From NCBI RefSeq assembly GCF_001466665.1, contig NZ_KQ758903.1:679684-743683 (forward strand): a DNA stretch of 64,000 nucleotides. Reading direction: 5' to 3'. Under the pieces are notes generated by a model. The model had not been told where the DNA came from, searched no databases, and saw nothing but the letters and a program-made list of their open reading frames with translations. Shown piece by piece: positions 3,706-39,340 of the stretch. The position numbers and the translations under genes were made by a program. The DNA comes from Dehalogenimonas alkenigignens. Its GTDB lineage: Bacteria > Chloroflexota > Dehalococcoidia > Dehalococcoidales > Dehalococcoidaceae. Position 1 is the stretch's first letter. Each line of letters starts with the position of its first letter.

Positions 3706-4494
3706 TCACCGATGCTCATGGTGGGGGTGGACGCACTCAAGGACGGTGAAGCGTTTCTGGTCGCCGCCGATGACGATGCCGAAGGTCTCCAGCAGCGCTT
3801 GAGGTGTCAACACATCGTCCGGCGGACCAAGGGCGACAACGCGGTGGGCCAGAAGCATTACCTGGTGACACAGCGCAGCCTCGTCCTGAACGTCATGAGT
3901 CGCTACCACGACGGATGCGCCGCGGCAGAGTTCATCCTTGATGGCCTGCAGGTAACGTTCCCGCCCGCCGACATCCAAGCCGGCCGTCGGCTCGTCCAGA
4001 ACTAAAAGATCGGCCCGGTGGGCCAGCACCTGGGCAAGAAAAATGCGCTGCTGTTGGCCGCCGGACAGGGCACGCAGCGGGGCGTCGGCCAGCCTCTCCA
4101 CATCCATGACCGCCATCGATTGGCGGACGATATCTCGGTCCTCGGCGTTCATCCGGCCCATAAGCCCTAATCGGGGGTAGCGGCCCATGCTAACAACATC
4201 GGCAGCCCTGAGCGGCATAACGAAGCCTGAAGTGTGGAACTGCCCCAGGTAAGCGATGCGTTTGGGGTTGCGGCCGGGTTTGTCACCGAAAATCTGAAGA
4301 TCACCGCCCAGCTGAGGCAGTAATCCTACTATGGTTTTCAGCAGTGTCGACTTGCCTGAGCCGTTGGTGCCGATGAGGGCGATGGCCTGCCCTTCTGCCA
4401 GTTCGAAATTGATTTTATCGACGACCTTGACCCCATTATAGCCAATGGTCAGGCCGCGGGCGGCGATGTCAGGGACGTGCGCCAGACTAACCAT
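3706..4494 (-). CDS. znuC: Metal ABC transporter, ATP-binding subunit (ZnuC-like)
   Basis: A 262-residue ATPase of the zinc/manganese/iron chelate uptake family. Walker A is GTNGSGKSTLLKT (about residue 42), the signature is LSGGQQQRIFLAQ, and Walker B is DLLVLDEPTAGLD, followed by the H-loop ATHD. It would energise import of a divalent metal with the permease encoded just upstream; the two frames overlap by 8 nt (ATG inside the permease end), so translation is likely coupled. It is the last gene of a minus-strand operon fur/zur-znuA-lgt-znuB-znuC. Family membership is certain. Zinc, rather than manganese, is suggested only by the Fur-family gene and the palindromic operator. Confidence 0.88.
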   Translation of the reverse strand: MVSLAHVPDIAARGLTIGYNGVKVVDKINFELAEGQAIALIGTNGSGKSTLLKTIVGLLPQLGGDLQIFGDKPGRNPKRIAYLGQFHTSGFVMPLRAADVVSMGRYPRLGLMGRMNAEDRDIVRQSMAVMDVERLADAPLRALSGGQQQRIFLAQVLAHRADLLVLDEPTAGLDVGGRERYLQAIKDELCRGASVVVATHDVQDEAALCHQVMLLAHRVVALGPPDDVLTPQALLETFGIVIGGDQKRFTVLECVHPHHEHR

Positions 4495-5350
4495 CGGTTG
4501 CCTCCTCCGAGTGCTCCGGCAGGGACGGCGTGCGGGTCCGAAGATTCTGGATGGTGAAGACGACGAAGAAAATAATCGTGGCCACCAGTATGACGGCAGC
4601 CCCGGCGGCCAGATTGAAATGGTAGCTCAGAAGCAGGCCGGCGTACATAGATAGCGTCCCGAAACCGGCCGCCCATACCATCATGGTGCCGATGCGCGGG
4701 GCTAGAAGCGCCCCCGCCCCGGCTGGCGCAATGAGTAGTCCGAAAACCAGGAGCGTCCCCACCGTCTGGAAGGAAATGATGATAGTGGCGGCGATGAGCA
4801 TTAGCATCAGGTAATGGTATTTTTTTGACAAAAAGCCGGCCACCTGGGCCTGCTCCGGGTCGAAAGCCAGCAGCATGAAAGGGCGGGCGCAGATAAAGGC
4901 GACAGCGGCAATGCCAAGCGTGGCGATGAGTTGGACCACGATGCCTTCCGGGGTTATTCCCAAAAGTTCACCGAAAAGGATGCGCGTCAGGTCACCGGAG
5001 AAAGAACTGGAGCGCGATACAATAACCACACCCAGGGCCAGCATCCCCACGAAGAGGAGCCCGATGGCCGTATCCGAGGACAGGCGGGAGCGCTGTGTGA
5101 TCAAGGTTACCCCTCCGATCATCACTGCTGCTCCCAGAGCGGCGCCCAGCAGACCGGGAAATCCCAACAGCATTGCTACGGCAATACCAGGCAGAACGCC
5201 GTGAGCCAGAGCGTCGCCTATAAAAGCCAGTCCGCGCAGCACGATGAACGTCCCGGCGATGGCGCAGGCAACTGACACCAGGACTCCAGCCAGCAAAGCC
5301 TGGACCATAAACTGGTTATCTGAGAACGGGACGACGAAAATATCTAGCAT
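4487..5350 (-). CDS. znuB: Metal ABC transporter, permease (ZnuB-like)
   Basis: An integral membrane protein of about 287 residues if started at MLDIFVVPFSDNQFMVQALL; the open frame goes 13 codons further up to 5389. It shows eight to nine hydrophobic segments and the ABC-3 family pattern: FIVLRGLAFIGDALAHGVLPG near residue 40 (loop facing the ATPase), SSDTAIGLLF, and a final FNLAAGAAVILVATIIFFVVF helix. It forms the membrane channel for a divalent metal with ZnuC. It overlaps znuC by 8 nt and follows lgt after 95 bp. The start choice rests on family length; no strong ribosome site marks either candidate. Confidence 0.88.
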   Translation of the reverse strand: MLDIFVVPFSDNQFMVQALLAGVLVSVACAIAGTFIVLRGLAFIGDALAHGVLPGIAVAMLLGFPGLLGAALGAAVMIGGVTLITQRSRLSSDTAIGLLFVGMLALGVVIVSRSSSFSGDLTRILFGELLGITPEGIVVQLIATLGIAAVAFICARPFMLLAFDPEQAQVAGFLSKKYHYLMLMLIAATIIISFQTVGTLLVFGLLIAPAGAGALLAPRIGTMMVWAAGFGTLSMYAGLLLSYHFNLAAGAAVILVATIIFFVVFTIQNLRTRTPSLPEHSEEATDG

Positions 5351-5445
5351 CGGAGCGTTAAATACGAAGCATAAAATCCGAAATACCAAACAGATTCAAA
5401 ATCATCATAAAAATTAAACGGCAGCTCGGTCATTGCGGATTTCAC

Positions 5446-6237
5446 TTATTCAGACTTGTTTCGAATTCCGAAATTCGAATTTTGGATTTTCGTCCTGCGG
5501 TACCGGTACCAAAACAAAGTGACACCGATGACTACCGCGGCACCGGCGATCCAGCGGGCGGTGGGCACACCACTCAGGGTCCAGACCTCTGGCTTGAATC
5601 CCTCCAGGAAGAAACGCACCACGCCGTACCAGATGAAATACATGAGCATGATGTCGCCGTCTTTGAGCCTGTCTTTAAACTTAAGCCCGGCGGTTATCAA
5701 AGCGATAAAACCGAGGAGGTTCAATGAAGATTCGTAGAAAAACATTGGGTGGAAATGGGTGAACTCCTCAAAGCCGGGCAGTCGGTTCTCGGGGCTGATG
5801 GGAATGCCCCACGGCAGGTCGGTGGGATAGCCGTAGAGTTCCTGGTTGAAGTAGTTGCCCCACCGCCCGATGCTCTGGGCTAAGATTAGACCCGGCGCCA
5901 GTATATCGCACCAGCGCAGCGTCGATAGACCCTTCCAGGCGGTGTAGATGATGACGCCCAGGGCGCCGCCGGCAACCGCGCCGAAGATGCCCAATCCCTC
6001 GCCGCCGATTATCTGGCTCGGATTTGCGGAGTAGAAGTCCCAGCGGTCGATGACGTGGTATGCCCGGGCGCCAACAACACCAAGCGGGATAACGATAAGT
6101 GCCATGTTGAACAACTGCTCCGGGTCTTCGCCGCGACGCTTGGCCTCGATATAAGCCACGGCCACGGCGGCCAGTGCTCCCAGTGCCAACATCAGCCCGT
6201 ACAGGTGGATAGTGAACGGCCCCAGTTCGAAAGACAT
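5446..6237 (-). CDS. lgt: Prolipoprotein diacylglyceryl transferase
   Basis: A 263-residue membrane enzyme that transfers diacylglycerol from phosphatidylglycerol to the lipobox cysteine of prolipoproteins. Seven hydrophobic segments are visible. Family motifs include GARAYHVIDRW (residues 56-66), GGEGLGIFGAVAGGALG and the signature QSIGRWGNYFNQELYG, plus RFFLEGFKPE near the C-terminus. AAGGTGATT precedes the ATG. It lies between znuA and znuB in a metal-transport operon. The SBP encoded by znuA is itself a predicted lipoprotein, so enzyme and substrate are co-encoded. The last ~12 residues (IQNSNFGIRNKSE) look like read-through into a short repeat-like sequence and are poorly conserved. Confidence 0.93.
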   Translation of the reverse strand: MSFELGPFTIHLYGLMLALGALAAVAVAYIEAKRRGEDPEQLFNMALIVIPLGVVGARAYHVIDRWDFYSANPSQIIGGEGLGIFGAVAGGALGVIIYTAWKGLSTLRWCDILAPGLILAQSIGRWGNYFNQELYGYPTDLPWGIPISPENRLPGFEEFTHFHPMFFYESSLNLLGFIALITAGLKFKDRLKDGDIMLMYFIWYGVVRFFLEGFKPEVWTLSGVPTARWIAGAAVVIGVTLFWYRYRRTKIQNSNFGIRNKSE

Positions 6238-6283
6238 CCAGAATCACCTTTATCGCATACTATCACATGACGCAAGCGTGTTC

Positions 6284-7192
6284 CTACCTGAGTGCATCGG
6301 CGATCTTCACAACAAGCTGGTGCATGAAGGTAAAATAGGATCCGTCTGGTGGCAAGCTAGCGGGGGAAAGTTCGACAATCACCGCCCCAGTGGCGGTGGC
6401 AACCTGTTGCACGGCAACCGCCGAAGTACCGGTTTCGGTAAAAACTGCCTTGACCTGATTTGAGCGCACCAGCTCGATTAGTGTGGCCAGATCAGCGGCA
6501 GATATTCCGGCTTGAGATGACAGGTTGGGGACGACGGAGCCGATCAGTTGGAACCCATAGCGCTGGGCGAAATAGCCCAGAGACTCGTGGCCTGTCACCA
6601 GTTTTCGGTTTGCCTCGGGAATTACAGCCACCAAGCTGGAAATCTCTGAGTGAAGAGCCTCAAGTCGTCCTTCAAGATTACGAGCGCGGGCTGAGGCGTC
6701 GATACCTAGGGCTGCCTCGAGTTCAATAGCCAAGGCGGTAACGACGCTTTTCATAGCCAACGGGTCAACCCAAAAATGCGGGTCCGGGGCGCCGACCTGT
6801 TGGTCCGGATCGCCGCCGGGGATTCCCTCGCCCTTCCCGACGAGTCGTACCTGGATATGGTCAGTTGCGGTGAATATCCGGACGCCATGATTTTTGGCGG
6901 TCTCCATGGTCGATTCCAGGCCTTCTTCGAGGCTGAGGCCGTTTCGAACGACGAGGGCGGCTTTATTGACCCGCTCGATGTCTCGGGCTGAGGGTTCCCA
7001 TTGGTGAGGATCGGAGCCGTCAGGAATAAGGACGGTCACGATTGCCTCGCCACCGACCAGGTCCTTCACGATTGAACCGAGAACCGAATAAGTTACGACG
7101 ATTGCTTTATCGTCGATACCGGGACGGCAGCCGGCGGCGCCGGAAACCACGCTGGCGACTAAAAGAGCCACGAAGATGACCCGGGATTTCAT
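6284..7192 (-). CDS. znuA: Metal ABC transporter, substrate-binding lipoprotein (ZnuA-like)
   Basis: A 302-residue cluster A-I binding protein. The N-terminus is a lipoprotein signal (MKSRVIFVALLVASVVSGAAGC) with lipobox GAAGC; Cys22 would be lipidated by the neighbouring Lgt. Metal ligands of the family are visible: His in DGSDPHQWEPS, His in APDPHFWVDP, His in VTGHESLGYF and an acidic residue in VFTETGTS. The His-rich flexible loop found in many ZnuA proteins is absent; the loop here is KGEGIPGGDPDQQVG. Zinc therefore cannot be told from manganese by sequence alone. Its ATG overlaps the end of the Fur-family gene by 4 nt, so it is translationally coupled to its own regulator. Confidence 0.9.
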   Translation of the reverse strand: MKSRVIFVALLVASVVSGAAGCRPGIDDKAIVVTYSVLGSIVKDLVGGEAIVTVLIPDGSDPHQWEPSARDIERVNKAALVVRNGLSLEEGLESTMETAKNHGVRIFTATDHIQVRLVGKGEGIPGGDPDQQVGAPDPHFWVDPLAMKSVVTALAIELEAALGIDASARARNLEGRLEALHSEISSLVAVIPEANRKLVTGHESLGYFAQRYGFQLIGSVVPNLSSQAGISAADLATLIELVRSNQVKAVFTETGTSAVAVQQVATATGAVIVELSPASLPPDGSYFTFMHQLVVKIADALR

Positions 7193-11202: not shown

Positions 11203-11231
11203 TAAATGATACTCCATGATAGTATCATTTA
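11203..11231 (+). promoter_or_regulatory. Inverted repeat upstream of csoR, candidate operator
   Basis: Two exact 10-bp arms, TAAATGATAC (11203-11212) and GTATCATTTA (11222-11231), flank a 9-bp spacer that itself repeats ATGATA. The dyad ends 1 nt before the csoR start codon, so a bound protein would block transcription or translation. CsoR operators usually contain G/C tracts; this one is A/T-rich, so the bound regulator is not proven. Confidence 0.6.
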
Positions 11232-11232
11232 T

Positions 11233-11553
11233 ATGACAACGCACATCGATCACGCTGCCGAGCCTGGTCGGCAATACCTTTACACCGCCGAAAAAGATCT
11301 GTTGCTCGGCCGGCTGAAGAAGATCCAGGGCCAGGCCCGAGGTATCGAGAAGATGATCGCCGATGGCCGCTACTGCCTGGAGATCGTTCAGCAGTTGACT
11401 GCCCTGTCCGCCGCCGCCGAGGAGCTTTCGCTGAAGCTACTGGAAAGCCACATCGAAGGCTGTGTCGCCGGGGCTATCCGCGCCGGTGACGGCAGCGATC
11501 AAGCGCACATTAAAGAGCTTATGAAAGCCATACGTAAATCAGTAAAACGTTAA
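11233..11553 (+). CDS. csoR: CsoR-family copper-sensing repressor
   Basis: A 106-residue all-helical repressor of the CsoR/RcnR family (DUF156). The typical start KDLLLGRLKKIQGQARGIEKMI is present. The Cu(I) ligand set is visible as Cys in DGRYCLEI, His and Cys in LLESHIEGCV. Lower-down residues ELMKAIRKSVKR are also typical. I start at the ATG of MTTHIDHAAEP; the open frame extends nine codons further up but that stretch contains the operator dyad. It precedes copZ by 11 bp and copA, so it most likely derepresses copper export when Cu(I) binds. Confidence 0.9.
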   Translation: MTTHIDHAAEPGRQYLYTAEKDLLLGRLKKIQGQARGIEKMIADGRYCLEIVQQLTALSAAAEELSLKLLESHIEGCVAGAIRAGDGSDQAHIKELMKAIRKSVKR

Positions 11554-11780: not shown

Positions 11781-11832
11781 AGCATCCTGAGTCTTGCATC
11801 TCAGCTCAGTGGCGTGTATTCGGCAACCAGAA

Positions 11833-14376
11833 ATGACAACACCAAAGAAAAAGATCTCACTCACCCTCTTTATCGGTGGGATGACCTGTGCCGCCTGTGT
11901 CCGCCACGTCGAGGGGGCGCTTAAGAGCGTGCCCGGCGTCGGCGCGGTGACGGTCAATCTGGCCACCGGCAAAGCTGCCGTGGAGTACGATCCGATGCAA
12001 GCTTCTCTCGCCGATTTGAAAAATGCCGTCGAGAACATGGGCTACAGCGCCTCGCTGGAGGTCACCGAGCTGTCCATCACCGGCATGACATGCTCTGCCT
12101 GCGTCAAGAATGTCGAGCGCGTGGTTGCCGCCATGCCTGGAGTCACCAACACCGTGGTCAATCTGGCTGCCGGCAGCGCCCGCATAGAATACTCGCCGAC
12201 CGTCACTCCGCTGTCCGAAATCATCGCCGCCATCGGCGACATGGGCTACAGCGCCGCCGAGAAGATCGAAGGCCAGGCTTCCCTCGACAGGGAGCAGGCC
12301 GCCCGCGCTGAGGAAATCTCCCGGCAGAAGCGCAACCTCACCATCGCCGGGACACTTGGCCTGCTGGTCATGCTGGGCATGTTCCAGCCTTACTGGATCC
12401 TTTCAGACATCGTCCCGACCTGGATGAACAACAAGGTTTTCCTCTTCTTTCTGACCACGCCCATCGTCTTCGGCCCTGGGCGGCAGTTCTTCATCAATTC
12501 CTGGAACGGCTTGAAGCGCGGCCTGACCGACATGAACCTGCTTTACGCCACCGGCATCGGCGCGGCGTACCTCATCGCCGTCATCAACACCTTCTTCCCG
12601 GACGCCGGCTTCGGCGGGAGGGAAGCCACCTTCTATGAGGCCGCCGCCCTTCTAACCGCCTTCATCATCCTCGGCAGGTATCTGGAAGCGGTTACGCGGG
12701 GCAGGACCTCGGAGTCCATCCGCCGCCTGATGAAGCTGCAGCCGAAGCTGGCCCGGGTCATCCGCCAAGGCATCGAGTCCGAGATACTCGCCGAAGCCGT
12801 CCTCGTCGGTGATGTCGTGGCGGTGAGACCAGGAGAGGTCATACCCGTCGACGGCGTGGTCGCCGAGGGGTACTCGGCAGTCGACCAGGCGATGGTCACC
12901 GGCGAGAGCATTCCGGTGGAGAAGAAGTCCGGCGACGAGGTTTTGGGCGGCACGCTGAACAAGACCGGCGCCTTCCGCTTCCGGGCGACGCGGGTCGGGC
13001 GGGAGACGGCCCTCGGGCAGATAATCAAGCTCGTCGAAGAAGCCCAGACGACCAAAGCCCCCATCCAGAAGCTGGCCGACAGAGTGGCCGGGCAGTTCAT
13101 CGCCGGGGTGCATGCCATAGCGCTCATTGTCTTCGTGTTCTGGTTCTTCATCGGTTTCGAGGCGTGGTTTACGCCTGACACCCGGCTGATACTCACGCCG
13201 TATGTCCTCACCGGCCTTGGGGTCTTCGGCTTTGCACTTTTAACTTCGGTGACGGTGCTGGTCATCTCCTGCCCCTGCGCCCTGGGCCTGGCGACGCCTT
13301 CGGCGGTCATGGCCGGCAGCGGCAAGGGGGCGGAGTACGGCGTCCTCTTCAAGGGCGCCGACGCCATGGAGGCGACGGCGAGGCTCGACGCTGTGGTGTT
13401 TGATAAGACCGGCACGCTCACCCGCGGCGAGCCTTCGGTCACTGACATCGTCCCCGCGCGTAAAAACGACTCAAACGATTCGGACGCTGTTTTAAGGCTG
13501 GCGGCGATTGCCGAGAAGCACTCGGAGCACCCGCTGGGCGAGGCTGTCGTCAGGGCGTATCGGGAGAAGTTCGGCGAACCCGATGACGCTGAATCGTTCG
13601 AGGCGGTACCCGGCCACGGCATCATCGCCAGGATCGAAGACATGTTTATCCTGCTGGGCAACCGGAAACTGATGGCAGCCAACGGCGTCGACGTTAGCTC
13701 GCTCGAATCCGAGGCGGCAAGGCTCGAATCCGAGGGCAAAACAGCCATGTTTGTCGCATCGGACGGGAAGCTTTTGGGCATCGTCGCCGTGGCCGACACG
13801 CTCAAAGCCACCGCCGCCCGGGCTGCCGCCGAACTGAAGAAGATGGGACTCAAGGTGTACATGATCACCGGCGACAACACCCGCACCGCCGCCGCCGTCG
13901 GCAGGCAGGCCGGCATCGAAAACGTTCTGGCCGAGGTGCTGCCCCGGGACAAGGCGGCCGAGGTGAAGAAGCTGCAATCGCGCGGCTTCAAGGTGGCCAT
14001 GGTCGGCGACGGCATCAACGACGCGCCCGCCCTCGCCCAGGCCGATGTCGGCATCGCCATCGGCAGCGGCACCGATGTCGCAAAAGAAACGGGCAACGTC
14101 ATCCTGGTGAGGAACGACCCGCTCGACGCCGTCGCCGCTGTCCAGGTGGGGCGCAAAACGCTCGGCCTCATCAAACAGAACCTGTTCTGGGCTTTCGGGT
14201 ACAACACGCTGGCTATACCCATCGGCATGGGGGTGCTGTATCCCTTCACCCACCAGATGGTCTCACCCGAACTGGCGGCGCTTCTGATGGCCACCAGTTC
14301 GCTCTCGGTGACTTTGAACACGCTCCGGATGCGGGGTTTCGTTCCGGCCGTACGCCGGGAGAAGGCAGCGGCATGA
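11833..14376 (+). CDS. copA: Cu(I)-exporting P1B-type ATPase
   Basis: An 847-residue copper pump. Two HMA domains occupy residues ~10-75 (GGMTCAAC) and ~80-145 (GMTCSAC). Eight transmembrane helices follow, with the CPC metal site in [15 protein letters not shown] (about residue 480), actuator [10 protein letters not shown], phosphorylation site [10 protein letters not shown] (about residue 525), the SEHPLG loop and the hinge [20 protein letters not shown]. The conserved [16 protein letters not shown] lies in the last helix. It exports Cu(I) across the membrane. I take the ATG of [10 protein letters not shown]; a TTG 13 codons upstream is also open but has no ribosome site. It shares the csoR-copZ-copA operon and overlaps the next small gene by 4 nt. 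Confidence 0.95.
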
Positions 14377-30075: not shown

Positions 30076-30756
30076 TCAATTGGCGGTGGCGGTAACCTGG
30101 TCAATAAGGAAAGCCGAAGCACCGTTCAGCACCGGCACGGTTTCCAGGACGATGATATTGAAAGCGACGGCGGAAGTGAAGGTGACAGTGCCTTGCGGAA
30201 AGGTATCGCTGGCGAAAACGCCGCGGGCGGCCGCATTGCCAATCGGCGGGCTTGATATCGAACCTGAATAGGCGACTACCCTGAGTTCCGTCGGGGTCTC
30301 GACATTGCCCGGGCCGTGTGAATCAGTGGTAGCAAACACAATAGAAACCGAGTTCATTGGCTGGCTGAACTTAATCTGGAGCGAACTCCTGGAGACATCG
30401 TTGTCATAGATATATTTGCCTGAAAACTGGGACAGGATAAAATTGGTCGCCGCCTGGTTCTGGATTGAATAGGCCGCTCCGGATGACGAACTGAATTCAG
30501 CGGTGATGCCGTTGACGGTGCTGCTGAATGGCGTGCTCTGGCCAACATTCAACACGGGGCTGCCGGCGTCGAAATTGAAAATGAAGGTGCCCGAGATTAC
30601 GGGAGGAGGGGTGGTTGTCGGCGGCGTTGTGGACGGTAAAGAAGTCGTTGAAGGCGAAGTGGCGCTCGGCGTTCCGTTGTCCGGACCGCAAGCCGGCAGT
30701 ACCAGGAGCAGTAAGAACATTACGGCCGTTGATACTGCTTGCCGGTATTTCATCAT
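30076..30756 (-). CDS. Predicted lipoprotein, beta-rich
   Basis: About 226 residues from MMKYRQAVSTAVMFLLLLVL. The lipobox is LPAC (about residue 23). A Ser/Thr/Pro linker follows (residues 30-54), then a beta-rich domain with ISGTFIFNFDAGSPVLNVGQ, FSGKYIYDNDVSRSSLQIKF, VSIVFATTDSHGP and FNIIVLETVPVLNGASAFLI. The plan, a folded surface domain on a low-complexity stalk, suits an outer-face anchored protein and has a flavour of PEP-CTERM/jelly-roll exported domains. GAGGGAA precedes the ATG, and the ATG-ATGA overlaps the stop of the ABC ATPase gene, so the two are coupled. Specific function unknown. Confidence 0.65.
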   Translation of the reverse strand: MMKYRQAVSTAVMFLLLLVLPACGPDNGTPSATSPSTTSLPSTTPPTTTPPPVISGTFIFNFDAGSPVLNVGQSTPFSSTVNGITAEFSSSSGAAYSIQNQAATNFILSQFSGKYIYDNDVSRSSLQIKFSQPMNSVSIVFATTDSHGPGNVETPTELRVVAYSGSISSPPIGNAAARGVFASDTFPQGTVTFTSAVAFNIIVLETVPVLNGASAFLIDQVTATAN

Positions 30757-31475
30757 GGCAATTCCCTCGCTACCCCGATGGAAGCAACCGGCGTATTTCG
30801 GCATGGTATGGGTTTCAGCCTGCCGTCTTCCATTTCGAAAGCCCGGCTGGCGAAAGGCAGCAATTCCAGACTGTGGGTAACCACCAGAAAAGTTACCCCC
30901 TGTTTATTGATGCTGCAGATTAACTCCATTATCTGGTTTTCAGTGTGTTGGTCAAGGTCGCTGGTCGGTTCATCGGCCAGTATCAATTTGGGCTCGTTCA
31001 CCAAAGCCCTGGCGATGGCTACCCTTTTTTGTTCACCGGCCGAAAGCTGTTGGGGATGTACCTGGGATTTTGCGCTTAAGCCGACTGTTTCCAGCAGTGC
31101 TTTAGAACGTTCCAGAAAATGGTTTGGGGATTTCCTGGAGGTGAAGCCCGAGGGAAGATAAACGTTATCCAATACCGTTATGGAGGGAATCAGGCTGGGA
31201 AATTGAAAAATAAAGCCCATGGTTTCACGGCGCATGGTTGAAAGCCCTTGATCATCCAGGCCGGCAAGATCGCCGCCGTTCATTGTCACCCGGCCGGATG
31301 TTGGTTTGATCAATCCGGCGGCCAAATTTAGAAGGGTGGACTTCCCGGTCCCGGAGCGGCCGATGATCATGATCAATTCCCCGGCTTTGATATCGAGGGT
31401 GACATCGCGGACGGGACTGATGGATGTAGACGCATCCAGGGCAAAGGTTTTGGTGACGTTCTCAAGTTTCAGCAT
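30753..31475 (-). CDS. ABC transporter ATPase (MacB/LolD type)
   Basis: A 240-residue ATPase: Walker A GRSGTGKSTLLNL (about residue 40), Q-loop FIFQFPSLIPSITVLDNVYL, signature LSAGEQKRVAIARAL, Walker B PKLILADEPTSDLDQ and the H-loop VVTHSLELL. The short loop 'MRRETMGFIFQ' is typical of the exporter branch (MacB, LolD, FtsE). It is 1 bp from the permease gene and couples to the lipoprotein gene downstream. It probably works with the FtsX-like permease on lipoproteins, peptides or an envelope process, not on import. Confidence 0.88.
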   Translation of the reverse strand: MLKLENVTKTFALDASTSISPVRDVTLDIKAGELIMIIGRSGTGKSTLLNLAAGLIKPTSGRVTMNGGDLAGLDDQGLSTMRRETMGFIFQFPSLIPSITVLDNVYLPSGFTSRKSPNHFLERSKALLETVGLSAKSQVHPQQLSAGEQKRVAIARALVNEPKLILADEPTSDLDQHTENQIMELICSINKQGVTFLVVTHSLELLPFASRAFEMEDGRLKPIPCRNTPVASIGVARELP

Positions 31476-31476
31476 C

Positions 31477-32676
31477 TTATTGTCTCATGGCTATGGCGAG
31501 TTCCTGGCGGCTCAGGCGGAAGGCGGGAATGGAGGCGGCCAGCGTCACGGTCACCAGCGCCAATCCGACACCGGCACCCACAAGCCCCAGAAACACGCCA
31601 AGCGGAGGGAAGAGAAAGGGCATGCGCAGCGAACCGGCGATGAGGTCCTTAAGGACAAACAAACCTCCGGCCGCCACGATAATGCCGACCAGGGAGCCGG
31701 CGGCGGCCAGTAAAGCCGCTTCCGAAAGGAGGGTTTTAAATATGAACCCCCGGGTGGCGCCAATGGCTCTGAGGACAGCCATTTCCCGCCTGCGTTCATT
31801 GGCCGCCATGGAAAATATTAATCCGATCAGCAGCATCGACAGAATCCAGATGATGAGCGAGATGATGAAAAAACCCCACAACAAGCCGTTCATCTGGTTC
31901 CGGAAAGCGCCGAAGAGGTTCGGGCTTTCGATTGGCACCATCCCCCTGGTATTGGACAGAATGTCCAGGGCAACTCTGTGGATATCGGCGGACGGTTCTA
32001 CCCGGACCATGATGGTGGAGATCAATTCGGGGTCGACCACCAGCGGTTGAACCGCGGTGGTAACGGATGATTCGGCCATGGCGATAGCCGTTTCCATGGT
32101 CATGAACAGCGTTTGATCCAGCCCGGTCCCGGTGGCTGACAGGTTGCCGACCAGGTCCATGCCGTAGCCGTAGAGGATTATCTGATCGAATTCAGGCGGG
32201 ACAAAAATATAGTGGCCGCCGACAACCTCACCTCTGGCAAGGTCCCGTCCGAGATTGTCTCTCAGCCAGGGTGTCACCGTGAAATCGGTCGCCGGGTCGT
32301 ATACCACAATGAACATCTCCCAAACAGCGCAGCAGGCGGCGCCGTATAAGGAAGCCAGGTATACCTGGGGAGAAACAGCCTCAACGCCGGGGACAGAAGC
32401 GACTGATTCCAAGTTGCTTCTGGGCATCCAGATTTCAGTCGGTTTACCCATCAAGAGGGCGGTTTCCAGCTTTGTTTCGGCGCCGACCGGAACCACCAGG
32501 ATATCAGCGCCCATGCGCTGCAAACCTGAATCAAGGCTGGTTTCAGCGCCTCGGATGATCAGGGTCGTCGAGAGCAGGAATGCCGCTACCCCGGCAACCC
32601 CGAGAAAAATACTCAGGCTCCGGAAGCCGTTCCAGCGGATGTTTTTCAGAGCAAGTTTAATCGTGCCCATAAACAC
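31477..32676 (-). CDS. ABC transporter permease (MacB/FtsX type)
   Basis: A 399-residue permease starting at GTG or the ATG 6 nt on. Helix 1 is residues 16-38, then a ~210-residue extracytoplasmic MacB-PCD-like domain (LVVPVGAETKLETALL, VEAVSPQVYLASLYGAACCA), and three C-terminal helices with the FtsX loop MAANERRREMAVLRAIGATR. One pair of adjacent Cys (ACCA) sits in the external domain. A 'mechanotransmitter' role in lipoprotein handling is known for this family. Together with the ATPase it forms the core of the 30-34 kb block, flanked on both sides by lipoprotein genes. Confidence 0.87.
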   Translation of the reverse strand: MFMGTIKLALKNIRWNGFRSLSIFLGVAGVAAFLLSTTLIIRGAETSLDSGLQRMGADILVVPVGAETKLETALLMGKPTEIWMPRSNLESVASVPGVEAVSPQVYLASLYGAACCAVWEMFIVVYDPATDFTVTPWLRDNLGRDLARGEVVGGHYIFVPPEFDQIILYGYGMDLVGNLSATGTGLDQTLFMTMETAIAMAESSVTTAVQPLVVDPELISTIMVRVEPSADIHRVALDILSNTRGMVPIESPNLFGAFRNQMNGLLWGFFIISLIIWILSMLLIGLIFSMAANERRREMAVLRAIGATRGFIFKTLLSEAALLAAAGSLVGIIVAAGGLFVLKDLIAGSLRMPFLFPPLGVFLGLVGAGVGLALVTVTLAASIPAFRLSRQELAIAMRQ

Positions 32677-32703: not shown

Positions 32704-33366
32704 TCAACAGGGCGGCAACCCGCCGCCGGCGCCTTCCTCGAATAAGACCAGAATATACGGCGCCTGCCCGGCGATATCCTTAGACCAATCCGTGGTCTTG
32801 TAAGTGGTGTTGGTTACGAGTTGGCCGTTGCTGTAAGAACGTTCAACATATTCTACCGATTCAACGTGCTTGCGAAGGTCCGAGCCCTGGGCTTGGGAGG
32901 TAATCAATCCGGATTCCAGTACGGAAATGGGGACGTTTTTAAAGGTGACCTGGTAAAAAACGCCGTCCTCGGCTGATGTCCGGGTGATGCTTCGGGCTAG
33001 TACCAGCGATGACAGCCATTTGCCGTCTGGGGTAATGGTGCCGTGAACCTGATCGGTTATTTTCTGGGTTGGCGTTGCTGCCTCGTTGAATCCCCTGAAG
33101 GTGTTGGCCATCCAGCCGATCGGCACTCCGGAGGCTTCCAGTGACGTCGGGTGTTTAAAGATAATGCCGAACGTCTCGAAGTCCATCAAGCCGTAAAGCC
33201 GGACCGAGATGCTGGTGGTCTTCCGCAGTTGTTCAGCCTGAACGGTATCCGGTGAGGTTGAAGCGCCCAGATCCGGCGAGCAACCCAACGGGAGAACCAG
33301 CGCCGCGGCTAATAACAACCACGCCGTTGGCCGAAATTTCTCTAAAATACTCTGTTTCATGCCCAT
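32704..33366 (-). CDS. Predicted lipoprotein of unknown function
   Basis: A 220-residue protein with a lipoprotein signal (AWLLLAAALVLPLGC, lipobox LPLGC, Cys at about residue 29). The mature part includes SISVRLYGLMDFETFGIIFK, IGWMANTFRGFNEAATPTQK and DGVFYQVTFKNVPISVLESG. It ends in a Gly-rich GAGGGLPPC with a terminal Cys. No known family comes to mind. It lies 27 bp before the FtsX-like permease gene and is likely a partner or cargo of that exporter. Confidence 0.6.
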   Translation of the reverse strand: MGMKQSILEKFRPTAWLLLAAALVLPLGCSPDLGASTSPDTVQAEQLRKTTSISVRLYGLMDFETFGIIFKHPTSLEASGVPIGWMANTFRGFNEAATPTQKITDQVHGTITPDGKWLSSLVLARSITRTSAEDGVFYQVTFKNVPISVLESGLITSQAQGSDLRKHVESVEYVERSYSNGQLVTNTTYKTTDWSKDIAGQAPYILVLFEEGAGGGLPPC

Positions 33367-33416: not shown

Positions 33417-33836
33417 CTATTCCAACCGGTTGGACCTGGCCGCCATAACCATGCCAACCAGGCCGGAAGCAATCACCAGCGCCCCGGCGGTGATGAGTCC
33501 GGGCCTTTCCAGGGTGACACAGGTCATAGTCGGGGTCTGGCAGACGCCGATCAGAAAGGTAGGCAGGGCGATAATCACCGCTCCCAGCACTACGCCGAGT
33601 CCGCCCAACTGCATAAGGGTGGTCTTGCGCCGGTTGAAAGTCATCATGACGCCGACGACAGCCAGCGGGGCGGCGGCGGCGATCTCGGCAATACCGCTCC
33701 AGTGACATTTCATGGGAACGGTCTTGCCGTTGGCCAGGGTAATGGCTTTTCCCTGGGACTGGCAATCGGTGAACATCGGGAAAACGGCGGCGAATATCGC
33801 CAGCACCACCAGGACAACGCCGAGGACTTTAAACAT
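33417..33836 (-). CDS. DUF4418 family membrane protein
   Basis: A 139-residue protein with four hydrophobic helices (MFKVLGVVLVVLAIFAAVFP at the start). The family trait is a set of Cys in the first external loop, MFTDCQSQGKAI ... VPMKCHWSGIAEIAAA, and PTMTCVTLERPGLI in the second. AAAGGAGT precedes the ATG. DUF4418 genes are, to my knowledge, often found beside MacB/FtsX-type ABC exporters, as here. Function unknown. Confidence 0.75.
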   Translation of the reverse strand: MFKVLGVVLVVLAIFAAVFPMFTDCQSQGKAITLANGKTVPMKCHWSGIAEIAAAAPLAVVGVMMTFNRRKTTLMQLGGLGVVLGAVIIALPTFLIGVCQTPTMTCVTLERPGLITAGALVIASGLVGMVMAARSNRLE

Positions 33837-33875: not shown

Positions 33876-34688
33876 TCACTTCTGTACCGTCCACAGCCAG
33901 TTGAGACCGAAGCAAATACCATGGATCTGGCCGTCATAGCCGACGCGATGCCACAAGTCAGTGATTTCATTGCGGGTGAAGTTGCGGTGAAACGGTTCAT
34001 TGCCAGCACAGGTCATGCTCAGGTGCTGGCGCATCTTCCAGATGCTGTTGGTGCTGGGGACAGACCCGACAAGCCAACCGCCGGGACGGCAGACCCGGAG
34101 CATTTCCTGGAGGGTGGTTTCAGGATTCTCCAGGTGTTCCACCACCTCAGTGGCGATGACCATATCCACCGACGAGTCTTGAACGGGCAGCATTTCAGCA
34201 TCCGCCTGGGCTTTGACAATGTATGGCTTGCCGTTCATCTGGTTTAAAGCCCAAAGGTTCATGTCCAGAGCTACGGCTTTCTGCCTGATGGTGGCCAGTC
34301 GGTGAGTGATCAGGCCGGTACCGCAGCCGATATCGAGGACAATCCCGTCACGGGGCAGCAGTTTTTCGATGTAGTGCCAGGTTTCGGCTCTCCTGGTGTG
34401 GTGATAGATATATTCGAGCCCCTTGGAGTCTTTGGTCCAATCGTAACGTTCAAAAAGGTAAAACTCTTTGACCGGGAGATGCCCGGCCGTCATTTCGAGG
34501 GCGGTGTCCGGGCTGATGAGCGACGGGATGCCGTTGAGTACGGAGTAGACGGTACCGCAGGACTCGCATTTCAGAACACTGTCCATAGGAACCAGGTTGG
34601 ATTTACAGCCAGGGCACCCGAAAACATCCAGATGCCAACGCTCGAATGAATGTCCTCCCGCAGAGTCAACGGGATATGTCTGAATCAT
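33876..34688 (-). CDS. SAM-dependent methyltransferase with N-terminal zinc ribbon
   Basis: A 270-residue protein. Residues 20-60 form a Trm112-like zinc ribbon (FGCPGCKSNLVPMDSVLKCE, SCGTVYSVLNGIPSLI), and residues 95-260 a class I methyltransferase: GIVLDIGCGTGLITHRLA (motif I), VALDMNLWALNQM, SSVDMVIATEVVEHLENPET and LRVCRPGGWLVGSVP. This combination occurs in methyltransferases that act on sugars, quinones and small molecules; the substrate is unclear. It heads the minus-strand 30-34 kb block, though promoter sequence was not identified. Confidence 0.78.
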   Translation of the reverse strand: MIQTYPVDSAGGHSFERWHLDVFGCPGCKSNLVPMDSVLKCESCGTVYSVLNGIPSLISPDTALEMTAGHLPVKEFYLFERYDWTKDSKGLEYIYHHTRRAETWHYIEKLLPRDGIVLDIGCGTGLITHRLATIRQKAVALDMNLWALNQMNGKPYIVKAQADAEMLPVQDSSVDMVIATEVVEHLENPETTLQEMLRVCRPGGWLVGSVPSTNSIWKMRQHLSMTCAGNEPFHRNFTRNEITDLWHRVGYDGQIHGICFGLNWLWTVQK

Positions 34689-34703: not shown

Positions 34704-34736
34704 CCGGCGGGTTCCGCGTTTTGCGGAACCCGCCGG
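34704..34736 (-). terminator. Terminator-like hairpin after the multicopper oxidase gene
   Basis: A perfect 14-bp stem (CCGGCGGGTTCCGC and its inverse) around a 5-nt loop, 12 bp beyond the oxidase stop codon. No long U tract follows on the minus strand. Confidence 0.6.
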
Positions 34737-34747
34737 TGTTCATTTTG

Positions 34748-37700
34748 TTACGGAGTGACGGTGATGCGGCACTGGGTGGGCTGATAGGACCAGCCGGCCG
34801 GACTCTGGTATCCGCCGAAGCTGGCCGAAACTACCCCTGGGGCACCGCTCAGCGCCACGGCGACATCGCCGCCGGCGGAGGTCAGTCCGGTGGCCGAAGA
34901 CAAAGTGCCAGCAGTGGTTAGGAAGGACAAAGTGCGCCCAACCAGCGGGTTGCCATACTGATCAGCCAGGTGGAAAGTGATTACGCCCGCTGAAGTTGAG
35001 CCGGTAATCACCGTCTGGATGAAGGGTACCACGGCGATGATGCCCATGTGGGACGAAGCCAGGCGATTGGCGTCACCGAAGAAAACGGCGTCGATAACCA
35101 CTGTCGATTTTTCATTCGGCGCCGGGACGCTGAGTGTAGCGACTCCGGAGGCGTTTGTGGTGGCTACGACAGAGCCATTCTGGGTAGTGCTGGATTCCAG
35201 CTTATAGAACACGTAATTGAAGGTGATGGACAAACCGGCGATGTTGACCGGAGCCTGGGCGGGCAGCGTTTGAAGCTGGGCGGTCATATTGATGTTCTGC
35301 CCCGGGCTGACCGAATCCGCCGAGGCGGTAACGACCCGTGTAATCGCCGGACCTGAAGCCGCGATTTCGGCGGTGATGCGCGCCTGGGAAGGCTGATACG
35401 ACCAGCCGCTGGCGTTCACGAAACCGCCGAAGCTGGCGGAGATGACCGCGGAGTTGACGCCGCTGAGGACGACCTGGGCATTGCCGCTGATATCGGTGGT
35501 GGCAGAACCGACCGACAGGGTGCCGGCGGTGGTCAGGAAGGACAGGTCCTGCCCGGCGATGGCATTGCCATAGGAGTCAGCCAGGTGGAAGGTCACGACA
35601 CCCGCCGCATTGGAGGCCGTCAGCACCGTCTGGATGAAAGGCACCACGGCGATGGTGCTCATATTGGATGAAGGCTGCAGGTTGGCGTCGCCGTTGAAGA
35701 TGGCGTCAACCACGACGGTAGCCTTTTCATTGGGAGCGACGATGGCCAGGACGGCTTTGCCGGCGGCGTCGGTGTTTACCGTCGCCGTGCCGGATTCGGT
35801 AGTGCTGGATTCAATCTTGTGGAAGACGTAGTTAAAGAGAACCGGCATCCCTGCCCGGACAACATCAGTCAGACCAGGCAATTGCTTCAATGAAGCCGTG
35901 ACTGTGATCGTCTTGGCCGGGCTGACCGAGGTCGGGGAGATGGTTACCATCCTGGTCTGGGCCACACCAGTGCTCTGGGCACCGGCGACCGTCGGAGCGG
36001 ATTCGGCGGTTGCCGTCGGGAAGCCGGGTATGGTGCTGCCGACTGTGTTCAAAGCGGCAACCCTGTAGAAGTAGGTGATGGCGTTTTCAATCTCAGTATC
36101 ATCGAACGTGGTGACCATGCCTACGGTGCGGGTTACCAGGTTAGCGGTGAAGCCGGCATTGGTGGCGCGTTCGATCTTGAATCCGGTGGCATTCACCGCC
36201 GGGTTGGTCCATGACAGGCTGACCCTCTTGGGGTTGTCCAGGACGGTGGCGGTTACGTTGGTCGGCGCGTCAGGAGCGACGGCGAAGCAGACGCCGTGCA
36301 TCATATCCATTTCCTCGTGGCCGAGGATATGGCAGTGGATGACATACTCCCAGCCGAAGTTGACCATCTGGTTGGTGATGGTGATCGGATTGCCGGTCGG
36401 ATCGAAGAAACCGCCGGGCGGGCCGATGAGGGTCTCACCTAAAGGCATGGTGGCATCGATCGGACGGATCGAGTTGGGCACCTTGAACGGCAGTTGCGGC
36501 GCTACCGGCCTGAGGGCGACGATGGTATCCTCCAGCGGGCTGACGCGGAGGGTTTCCTTCCAGCCGCGTTCGGTCGGGTGGGGAAGCGACAGGAAGCCGT
36601 CCCAGGCGACGCGGTTGATCACCTGAACGTTAAACAGGTGGAAGTGGATCGGGTGGGTGTCAACGCCGTTATGGGTGATTTTCCAGAGCTGGGTGCCGTC
36701 ACCCGGCATAGGCTCCGACAGCGGAACCATGGAGTCTTTGAGGACCTCGACCGGCGGCGAGGCATAGGGGTAAAGCATGAAGTTGGCGGCGCCGGCAACG
36801 GTATTGGGCAGTTCCAGCCCGAGCATGCCGCTCATGCGGCCGTAAACCGGGTCATAGGCTTCACCCATTTCGTCCTGGATGGCTTTGGGCTGCAGCGGCA
36901 GCGTCATCTGCTGTCCGCTAATGGTCTTAAAGGTATGGGAGTTCTGGAAGATGCGGACATAAGTATCAGCCGGGAAGGAAGTAGCGCCACCCCTGGGCGA
37001 GAAGGTGCCGTTGCCGTTATCCACCCTGTAGGCGTCGTTGTGAACGGCGTTGGGCACGATCAACTTGGGCTGCGTCCGCTCGAAGACGCCAGGGTGGGCG
37101 GCATTGGAAGCCCAGGCTTCATTCAGCGCGGAGACATTATACTGGGCTGCCGGCGCAACATTCCTGACCCGGATCTGCATGACAGTGCGGGTGTTGGGCC
37201 CGTGGCCGGGTAGAGTGGTGTTGCCGTTAGCGGGATAGGTATAGCCGCCGGCATCTGCCATATCCGGTGAGCCGGTGTAGTAGTCCAGGCGCGGGTCGGG
37301 GGCCGGGAAGGGGGCGGGGGCGTCGTTATAGACGATGAGTGTCTTGCCGGCATATTGTGAGAAATCAACGATAACGTCAGCCCGCTCGGCCGGGCCGAGG
37401 GCTAGGGAGAACGAGTTGACGATGCCGGCGTTGAAGGTGGTGACATCAACGTTCCAGTCGATCGGCCGCTGGGGGACGACGGCCGGCATGGGCAGGAAGC
37501 CGCCCTCGTTGCCGATGACGATCCAGTCAGGGCCAGCGGTGTTCCAGTCCGGCACGCCGCCATCGCGGCCGTCTATCGGCCAGGTGGCATTGCCCAACTC
37601 GAAGTTCTGCGGCCAGGTGGGGTCGTTGGGATACGGCGCGGCAACGACTGTCTTGATTTCGGTGCCGAAGCCATTGACAGTAAATCCTGTAGAATCCGCC

Positions 37701-39340
37701 TCATACATTTGAAGGTTTAAGAACCGGTCGTTGCAGGCGTTGAGGACGCGGAGCCGGTAAGATTTGGGATCAACTTCCACGTATGGGAAGGCGGTGCCGT
37801 TGACCAGCATGGTGTCCTGGAATGATTCCATCTGCATGGCAGGGTGGGGGGCGCCCGGAATGAAGGGGGCTTCCCACGGGGTATTGGCAGGATTGACCGA
37901 ATCATAATACGGGTTGGGTTGCGGCCCGACCAGAAGGTTGGTGGCCGGCGGCCAGAACCACGGGGCATAGTGCCAGCGGCCCATGGGGTTGATGCCGGAA
38001 TTGTCCGGCGCCCAGGGGTTCTGAGCCGGGTTGTAGACGTGGCCCATCCACAGGTCGCCGGTGTGGGGTACCGGCGGGGTGATGCCCCAGTTCCAGGTGG
38101 GATCGGTGGAGGGGATCATCGGGGCGTCAACGAAGGTCTTGTCCTGGACGATGAGCGGGATCTGGTCGGCGGGGATAATGCCGCTATTTACCAGTTCGGC
38201 TTCGACCGGGTCCTGAATGATGTATCCGGCGGCCATGCCGACATAAACGTTGAGGCGGGTAATGCCGAGCGCATGATCGTGGTAGAACATCAGGCGGGCG
38301 CTCATCTGATTGGGGTAGTAATAATTGTACTGGCCGGGTCCGGGATCAGGCATATCCGGCACGCCGGAGTAGAGGACGCTGGCGCCGTCGGGGTAAGATG
38401 TCGTCTCGCCGGCCGGGGTGATCCACTGATGAGGCGTGCCGTCGGAAATCCAGGGGGCGTCGGCGCCGTGGAGGTGGATGACGGCGCGGTTCTGGGTGTA
38501 AATCTCAGTGCCGCCCATGGGGCCAAGACCGGCGCCCATCATGGCTTCGTCAACGGGGATGAACAGGTTGCCGCCGGCGCCGGTGGGCAGTTCATTGGTG
38601 AACCTGATGCGGACGGCGCGGTCCTTCTGTGCGATGATCAGCGGGCCAAGGTAATGGATCGGCGCCGGCGTGACATTGTTGAGGGTGCCGCCGGCGTTGG
38701 TGCCGTTGTTGGTCTGGACATAGCCGCGGAGTCGGGTGGGGGGCAGGTCGGAGTGCAGTTTCTCGTTATACTCGCGGAGGGAGATCTCATAATAGTCGGA
38801 ACCGGGATAAGTCAGTTTATCGGGGTTGGCGATGGGGATATATTGCCCGAGGTTGTTGGCGGCGCCGGGCCCAAGGCCGGGCAAGCCGTCAACGAATTTC
38901 CGAATCGGCGGGCTGTAGGCCCAGTTGGGCACGGTGATGCTGAAATAGTCCGGCACATCGCCGGGTCCCGGATTGGCCGCCAGCGGGATGGCCTGGGCGA
39001 TGAGGCTGCCGCCGTTACTGGGGGTGAGCTGACCGGCTTCGGCCAGCGTCTCATTGGCGCGGGCGGCGGCGGCCATGCGCTCTTCATGGGTGATCTTGTT
39101 ACGGTAAACCGGATTGGTCACCTGTTCGGCGCCCTGGACTACCTTACGGGCGGCTATGGAATAACCCAAAAGCCCGGCGGTGCCGGCGGCCATCTGCAGG
39201 TACTGGCGCCGGGTTACCTCCCGGGGTTTGGCAGGCTGAGCAATGACCGAAGAAAGAGAAGTCGGGGTAGCGCCGCTGCCAGCCTCCCTCATCTTGCGCC
39301 TGAAAATATTGGTTGACATCCGCCTTCTGGGTGCTGGCAT
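34748..39340 (-). CDS. Large Tat-exported multicopper oxidase with FN3 and Ig-like modules
   Basis: A ~1530-residue secreted protein. The start is the ATG of MPAPRRRMSTN, which has GGAGGAG 8 nt upstream. The Tat signal is TRRQYLQMAAGTAGLLG (Arg pair ~44-45). The copper-oxidase part (to ~1015) carries all expected ligand sets: HLHGADAPW (~290), FYHDHALG (~355), HPIHFHLF (~895) and HCHILGHEEMDMM (~1002), the last giving the type 1 site Cys, His and Met. A fibronectin type III domain follows (~1025-1115; PTNVTATVLDN, VSLSWTNPAV), then two ~195-residue Ig-like repeats that resemble each other (FNYVF-K-ESSTT, PNEK-TVV-DA, GWSYQP). Such enzymes need O2, which is odd for an anaerobe. It may oxidise Mn or Cu or act on another acceptor. 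Confidence 0.9.
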   Translation of the reverse strand: MPAPRRRMSTNIFRRKMREAGSGATPTSLSSVIAQPAKPREVTRRQYLQMAAGTAGLLGYSIAARKVVQGAEQVTNPVYRNKITHEERMAAAARANETLAEAGQLTPSNGGSLIAQAIPLAANPGPGDVPDYFSITVPNWAYSPPIRKFVDGLPGLGPGAANNLGQYIPIANPDKLTYPGSDYYEISLREYNEKLHSDLPPTRLRGYVQTNNGTNAGGTLNNVTPAPIHYLGPLIIAQKDRAVRIRFTNELPTGAGGNLFIPVDEAMMGAGLGPMGGTEIYTQNRAVIHLHGADAPWISDGTPHQWITPAGETTSYPDGASVLYSGVPDMPDPGPGQYNYYYPNQMSARLMFYHDHALGITRLNVYVGMAAGYIIQDPVEAELVNSGIIPADQIPLIVQDKTFVDAPMIPSTDPTWNWGITPPVPHTGDLWMGHVYNPAQNPWAPDNSGINPMGRWHYAPWFWPPATNLLVGPQPNPYYDSVNPANTPWEAPFIPGAPHPAMQMESFQDTMLVNGTAFPYVEVDPKSYRLRVLNACNDRFLNLQMYEADSTGFTVNGFGTEIKTVVAAPYPNDPTWPQNFELGNATWPIDGRDGGVPDWNTAGPDWIVIGNEGGFLPMPAVVPQRPIDWNVDVTTFNAGIVNSFSLALGPAERADVIVDFSQYAGKTLIVYNDAPAPFPAPDPRLDYYTGSPDMADAGGYTYPANGNTTLPGHGPNTRTVMQIRVRNVAPAAQYNVSALNEAWASNAAHPGVFERTQPKLIVPNAVHNDAYRVDNGNGTFSPRGGATSFPADTYVRIFQNSHTFKTISGQQMTLPLQPKAIQDEMGEAYDPVYGRMSGMLGLELPNTVAGAANFMLYPYASPPVEVLKDSMVPLSEPMPGDGTQLWKITHNGVDTHPIHFHLFNVQVINRVAWDGFLSLPHPTERGWKETLRVSPLEDTIVALRPVAPQLPFKVPNSIRPIDATMPLGETLIGPPGGFFDPTGNPITITNQMVNFGWEYVIHCHILGHEEMDMMHGVCFAVAPDAPTNVTATVLDNPKRVSLSWTNPAVNATGFKIERATNAGFTANLVTRTVGMVTTFDDTEIENAITYFYRVAALNTVGSTIPGFPTATAESAPTVAGAQSTGVAQTRMVTISPTSVSPAKTITVTASLKQLPGLTDVVRAGMPVLFNYVFHKIESSTTESGTATVNTDAAGKAVLAIVAPNEKATVVVDAIFNGDANLQPSSNMSTIAVVPFIQTVLTASNAAGVVTFHLADSYGNAIAGQDLSFLTTAGTLSVGSATTDISGNAQVVLSGVNSAVISASFGGFVNASGWSYQPSQARITAEIAASGPAITRVVTASADSVSPGQNINMTAQLQTLPAQAPVNIAGLSITFNYVFYKLESSTTQNGSVVATTNASGVATLSVPAPNEKSTVVIDAVFFGDANRLASSHMGIIAVVPFIQTVITGSTSAGVITFHLADQYGNPLVGRTLSFLTTAGTLSSATGLTSAGGDVAVALSGAPGVVSASFGGYQSPAGWSYQPTQCRITVTP
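34757..35980 (-). repeat. Two tandem Ig-like module repeats at the C-terminus of the oxidase
   Basis: Module A (about 35370-35970) and module B (about 34757-35345) encode the same order of phrases: TVSP/SVSP start, FNYVF, ESSTT, PNEK-TVVxDA, IAVVPFIQTV, VxTFHLAD-YGN, LSFLTTAGTL and SASFGG. They are diverged at both DNA and protein level, so the duplication is old. Confidence 0.7.

Follow-up and report, generated by a model that had tools for sequence, protein, structure and literature searches.

A giant Tat-type multicopper oxidase with conserved copper ligands in Dehalogenimonas and a recurrent DUF4418/ABC gene set beside it

The window analysed here, a stretch of 64,000 nucleotides from Dehalogenimonas alkenigignens, encodes a giant multicopper oxidase that is intact and strongly selected. 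Its host is an organohalide respirer, and its relatives include proteins of metal-cycling bacteria and of methanogens. Known multicopper oxidases are textbook O2 reducers, and the question raised by this gene is whether it represents a hidden O2 defence or O2-free copper chemistry. Either answer is relevant to bioremediation strains exposed to oxygen fronts. Among the open-access papers listed, no title or abstract describes such an oxidase for Dehalogenimonas or Dehalococcoidia, and the word "copper" does not occur in the text of the 2026 Dehalogenimonas genome paper. The role that we consider most likely, with a probability of roughly one half, is to oxidise an extracellular reductant, using traces of O2.

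The oxidase gene (Table 1) has zero internal stops in its minus-strand translation, and GGAGGAG lies just 5′ of its ATG, which confirms that the huge ORF reported in the initial annotation is real. The Tat export proposed there is consistent with the N-terminal sequence, in which the arginine pair is followed by a hydrophobic stretch, as in a Tat-type signal. Multicopper-oxidase and Big_1 domains were seen in the protein by Pfam and NCBIfam. The Pfam score of Cu-oxidase_2 was above its cut-off (27.4 against 20.4 bits), that of Cu-oxidase_3 was just below (19.8 against 21), and that of Big_1 on two stretches of the tail was also just below (33.4 against 34.9). Pfam fn3 gave no match to the window oxidase at E ≤ 0.001. 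The FN3 domain was assigned from Pfam fn3 matches in the homologues L053 and L052, from a profile match to titin FN3 and from similarity seen in 59 of 86 loci. In the Ig-like tail, a unit of about 200 aa stands twice in tandem (56% identity over 198 aa). The FN3 and two Ig-like modules read from the sequence at the outset were thus recovered. In other Dehalococcoidia, relatives of the tail module are part of a subtilase, a phosphoesterase and a deacetylase-containing protein. Its presence on other exported-type proteins is as expected of a surface module and agrees with the surface placement suggested earlier.

Table 1. Position of the oxidase, its parts and its neighbours in the window.
Feature	Position	Strand	Details
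Giant multicopper oxidase	34748..39340	−	1530 aa, ATG at 39340; ORF reading, Pfam, PDB alignment
Twin-arginine signal region	39131..39217	−	residues about 42–70, RR at 44–45; sequence read
Laccase-fold core, 12/12 copper ligands	36266..38905	−	residues 146–1025; CotA alignment, model, direct reading
FN3 domain	35996..36283	−	residues about 1020–1115; homologues and profile match
Duplicated Ig-like (Big_1) tail	34751..35995	−	two units of about 200 aa
15-pair hairpin	34704..34736		between oxidase stop and methyltransferase gene
SAM methyltransferase	33876..34688	−	Pfam Methyltransf_11; kept in L055, L056, L070
DUF4418 membrane protein	33417..33836	−	four invariant Cys
Predicted lipoprotein LP1	32704..33366	−	without Pfam match
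FtsX-type ABC permease	31477..32676	−	extracytoplasmic Cys-Cys motif
ABC ATPase, LolD/FtsE-like	30753..31475	−	Pfam/NCBIfam
Predicted lipoprotein LP2	30076..30804	−	without Pfam match
Monoheme cytochrome c lipoprotein, 148 aa	41536..41982	−	2.1 kb upstream; link to oxidase uncertain

The copper ligands of the core are H289, H291, H354, H356, H896, H899, H901, H1002, C1003, H1004, H1008 and M1013, as found both in the alignment to CotA and by direct reading. The copper-ligand blocks, described as intact from the letters alone, are indeed complete, and the alignment to CotA proposed as a check revealed no lost ligand. D300 and E1009 align with Asp116 (D116) and Glu498 (E498) of CotA, two residues that PDB entries 4a67 and 4akp, by their titles, place at the trinuclear site. 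The closest solved sequences in the PDB are CotA laccases (E 7e-36). The AlphaFold model covers the core and FN3 (970 aa, 37 rows), with pTM 0.82, mean pLDDT 74 and poorly predicted core insertions. The modelled core matched CotA in Foldseek with an E-value of about 1e-36, and VIA-align gave a predicted superposition on CotA 7y8c_A with Z 29.8 and 2.8 Å over 466 residues; the Sulfurimonas oxidase 8z59 tied with CotA (Z 30.0). CotA of Bacillus subtilis is closest in solved fold and sequence and has all ligands and the D116/E498 pair in common with the window oxidase. In contrast to CotA, the window oxidase is three times longer, its core has 880 aa against about 510 aa through large insertions, and it has surface modules and is not a spore coat protein.

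The copper efflux oxidase CueO also has the fold of the window core (VIA Z about 28), with a weaker sequence match. CueO has a Met-rich segment; the comparison, which had been recommended, found none in the window core, where Met reaches at most 4 per 40 aa. The common fold, together with csoR (11206–11553) and a two-HMA copA (11794–14376) in the same window, would suit a CueO-like role in copper tolerance, with Cu(I) as the substrate oxidised at the cell surface, but the absence of a Met-rich segment and the distance of about 20 kb from these genes to the oxidase make such a role quite improbable. The initial annotation had pointed to a csoR-copZ-copA operon 20 kb away. The location of csoR and copA stands, but as evidence of a link the distance is too great. 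A csoR-copA link to the oxidase was therefore rejected, and the informative neighbours are those directly downstream of the oxidase. The window also contains metal uptake genes of the ZnuA/ABC-3 type at 3706–7192 (−).

Conservation was analysed in an alignment of 87 cores, comprising the window, 7 further loci and 79 of the best 80 named loci (L050 is identical to L070). The ligands and the D116/E498 equivalents were kept in 85–87 of the 87 cores; the C-terminal HEExDMM and FYHD positions are biased by the search patterns, and the HxH, HPxHxH, HCH and D300 positions are not. The exceptions were one row that a frameshift cuts short and one core with Ala as the axial residue. In comparisons with two congeners the dN/dS of the oxidase was 0.055 and 0.054, and with L070 it was 0.125. 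Chance is excluded as an explanation of the oxidase, because the best PDB match has an E-value of 7e-36 and dN/dS is 0.055. The conserved ligands and D116/E498 equivalents and the dN/dS of about 0.05 favour a working four-copper site. SufI/FtsP share the fold in the structure comparison and are known to lack the coppers. That the giant oxidases keep theirs is an argument for turnover of some substrate at the trinuclear cluster of this family.

The host genome is one contig of 1,851,576 bases and is 99.9% complete. No heme-copper or bd oxidase (PF00115 or PF01654) was matched in it, while control genomes did match, and the anaerobic-type host presumed at the outset is thereby supported. Given the intact ligands, the CotA-like fold and the selection, the ordinary mechanism of the fold, in which the substrate is oxidised at type 1 copper and the cluster reduces O2, is the best supported. 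In this mechanism, the Tat pathway would export the oxidase, and its FN3 and Ig-like modules would keep it at the cell surface. An extracellular reductant, which may be a low-valent metal ion, a reduced organic compound or cytochrome c, would give up electrons one at a time at type 1 copper. The electrons would then pass over the His-Cys-His bridge to the trinuclear cluster, where O2 would be reduced to water. In this host, such an oxidase would act when traces of O2 intrude, by consuming them and by oxidising metal on the cell surface, and would not be respiratory. The host genome also encodes a second oxidase of 782 aa, CotA-like and Tat-type, at about G000:C1:83.3–85.7 kb (L059 7322–9670). 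A Fet3-Ftr1-like iron uptake was ruled out, since the host genome has no FTR1 match.

Matches to the oxidase were found in 5 of 11 genomes of the host family (5/8 in the genus, 0/3 in the sister genus) and in 43 of 393 genomes of the class at E ≤ 0.001, mostly FN3 or short-oxidase matches. Full-length core relatives with at least 50% identity occur in 8 of the 393, and the relatives sought elsewhere in Dehalococcoidia thus exist. The nearest named relative among the matches listed, L070 (G570), belongs to the Dehalococcoidaceae, order Dehalococcoidales. The scan of named genomes gave at least 554 relatives, and the best 80 were retained, with 47–78% best-segment identity to the window core. 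Many of these best 80 are from anaerobes. Archaeal hosts among them include Methanoregula, other Methanomicrobiales, Methanomassiliicoccales, Ca. Methanoperedens and Bathyarchaeota. Bacterial hosts include Geobacter, Desulfobacteraceae, Syntrophobacteraceae, Coriobacteriia and Anaerolineae, and also Bacillaceae and other Actinomycetota. Individual host assignments may be wrong because many relatives are MAGs, although the Methanoregula PtaB.Bin085 contig has a length of 294 kb. The MAG of L070 showed a strong COX1 match (E 5.9e-146), which reflects either contamination or an O2-respiring relative.

PF00115 was detected in 21 of 50 named carriers and PF01654 also in 21 of 50. At least one of the two families was present in 28 carriers and neither in 22 (methanogens among them), a number inflated by incomplete MAGs. 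The 28 carriers with an O2-reductase-type gene, which include L070 (G570), indicate that the giant oxidase family is not specific to anaerobes. They count against a role with traces of O2 and equally against a reading of the family as purely anaerobic. So does the dispensability of the oxidase in the genus, where 3 of 8 genomes have no match and one copy is frameshifted. If the trinuclear cluster reduced an acceptor other than O2 (e.g., N2O), the enzyme would work in full anoxia. The intact cluster, the strong selection and the carriers with neither family are in line with this reading, but D300 and E1009 match the CotA residues at the O2-reducing site and the MAG effect weighs on the 22 of 50, so we regard it as very unlikely.

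Two genomes of the same genus, G004 and G005, encode a different oxidase, 46–48% identical to that of the window, which also has a Tat-type signal and which the tree places with Paenibacillus and Desulfoscipio; the G005 copy is the frameshifted one. From this difference and grouping we infer that the genus took up giant oxidases at least twice, separately, which is newly reported here. A plasmid search with the oxidase core gave only partial matches below 60% identity. Gluconate_2-dh3, GMC oxidoreductase and cytochrome c genes lie in a row near the second-type oxidase at L053 2117–5142. At L052 1366–13530 (G170), an oxidase ORF of 4054–4057 aa carries 29 GGxGYTxxPxV repeats, mostly before the core. 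This repeat is found inside the core in 4 of 87 proteins (L053, L054, L144, L052), at differing positions.

Judged by sequence, the window oxidase adds a member to the OmpB/MofA protein family, because its core relatives include a Geobacter locus of the OmpB type. At this locus (L148, Geobacter sp. OR-1), SCO, cytochrome c and a giant oxidase stand in the OmpB-type arrangement, and the identity to the window is 49% over the core. The MofA-like plan noted earlier fits this relationship. The window oxidase has a giant laccase core, FN3 and EXXE, a weak motif that occurs twice, at 190 and 824. MnxG has a six-domain core. OmpB of Geobacter sulfurreducens (GSU1394) and MofA of Leptothrix discophora resemble the window oxidase in the giant laccase-type core, FN3 and export, according to the description in PMC5566968 and to L148. 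The same paper presents OmpB as a multicopper oxidase precedent in a metal-reducing bacterium and MofA as its homologue. With this published precedent and a family widespread even among methanogens, the oxidase is not exceptional, contrary to what had first been suggested.

Compared with OmpB and MofA, the window oxidase has a Tat-type signal and a duplicated Ig-like tail, and its locus has the DUF4418/ABC set instead of SCO, MofC or MofB. No SCO or MofC-like cytochrome was seen within 7 kb of the oxidase and no MofB PPIase beside it; the upstream cytochrome c (Table 1) is of another type than MofC-like. Since these partner genes are missing, the oxidase falls outside the ompB/mofABC gene cluster. 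Under anoxia, it might still have a role like that of Geobacter OmpB, which is needed for Fe(III)-oxide reduction. As a copper protein at the surface, it would bind metal oxides or pass electrons on to them, perhaps together with cytochrome c. The common family and plan, and the 10 cytochrome c matches and one CcsA-type protein of the host genome, are in favour of this role. The missing SCO and MofC-like genes, the weakness of two EXXE motifs and the growth of Dehalogenimonas, reported in PMC7289593 to occur on organohalides only, are against it, and we consider it unlikely. Within the genus, the presence of the oxidase did not correlate with cytochrome c maturation, as CcsA-type matches occur in 8 of 8 genomes regardless of the oxidase. 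PF01578 cytochrome c assembly and cytochrome c domains were present in 8 of 8 genomes of the genus and 0 of 3 of the sister genus.

Downstream of the oxidase, a strong hairpin, without a U-tract on the minus strand, separates it from a run of methyltransferase, DUF4418, LP1, permease, ATPase and LP2 genes. These lie on the same strand with gaps of 1–59 nt or overlap, and the set is kept beside the oxidase in L055, L056 and L070. An LP1 homologue adjoins the oxidase ORF of G170, and an LP2 homologue directly follows the oxidase in Bathyarchaeota L107. In Methanomicrobiales L081, L087, L106 and L143, DUF4418, permease, ATPase and a second permease are divergent from a giant oxidase; the window DUF4418 was recovered by tblastn in L081 and L106 only and by alignment in all four. 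The predicted triad of DUF4418, Cys-Cys FtsX permease and ATPase thus recurs beside giant oxidases of methanogens, which is also new here. The two DUF4418-bearing groups are separate on the oxidase tree and at least 3 changes are needed (0 of 500 shuffles were as low), which indicates that the pairing was not simply inherited once. This recurrent transporter set offers a handle on how giant oxidases are served.

The permeases have the Cys-Cys motif in common and DUF4418 has four invariant Cys, which suggests thiophilic-metal or thiol chemistry. In the preferred reading, with O2 as the acceptor, the set would probably serve the oxidase by handling either a surface protein or a thiophilic metal. 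A NosDFY-like copper loading by the neighbouring set was set aside as analogy only, since NosDFY is of another ABC type than this FtsX-type set. The ferrous-iron cluster SifABCDE of Bifidobacterium breve has FtsX-type permeases and an ATPase as well, a likeness taken from the description in PMC5449479; in contrast to it, the window set occurs in a genome without an FTR1 match. We also speculate that the oxidase and the DUF4418, permease, ATPase and lipoprotein genes may belong together as a surface copper-redox module that spread horizontally among strict anaerobes (organohalide respirers and methanogens). It would run without O2, either passing electrons to some other acceptor outside the cell or serving as an outlet for them, with the ABC part servicing the copper protein; we think this unlikely.

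A plasmid search with DUF4418 gave no matches. Seven DUF4418 loci were found in 201 Chloroflexota genomes, of which three adjoin a giant oxidase (one lineage), one (L158) adjoins the end of a giant ORF that resembles a giant-oxidase tail and is cut by the contig end, one (L161) adjoins two smaller Cu-oxidase ORFs, and two (G104) have no oxidase in view. A strict tie of DUF4418/ABC to oxidases was rejected, since a Treponema plasmid has the triad without an oxidase in 15 kb. On this Treponema saccharophilum plasmid (L162 6771–8841), DUF4418, Cys-Cys permease and ATPase genes adjoin cysteine-metabolism genes and an Rrf2 regulator. The locus L161 368–12954 (G402) contains, besides the two smaller Cu-oxidase ORFs and DUF4418, a ferredoxin-type membrane protein, a six-CxxCH protein, two permeases and an ATPase.
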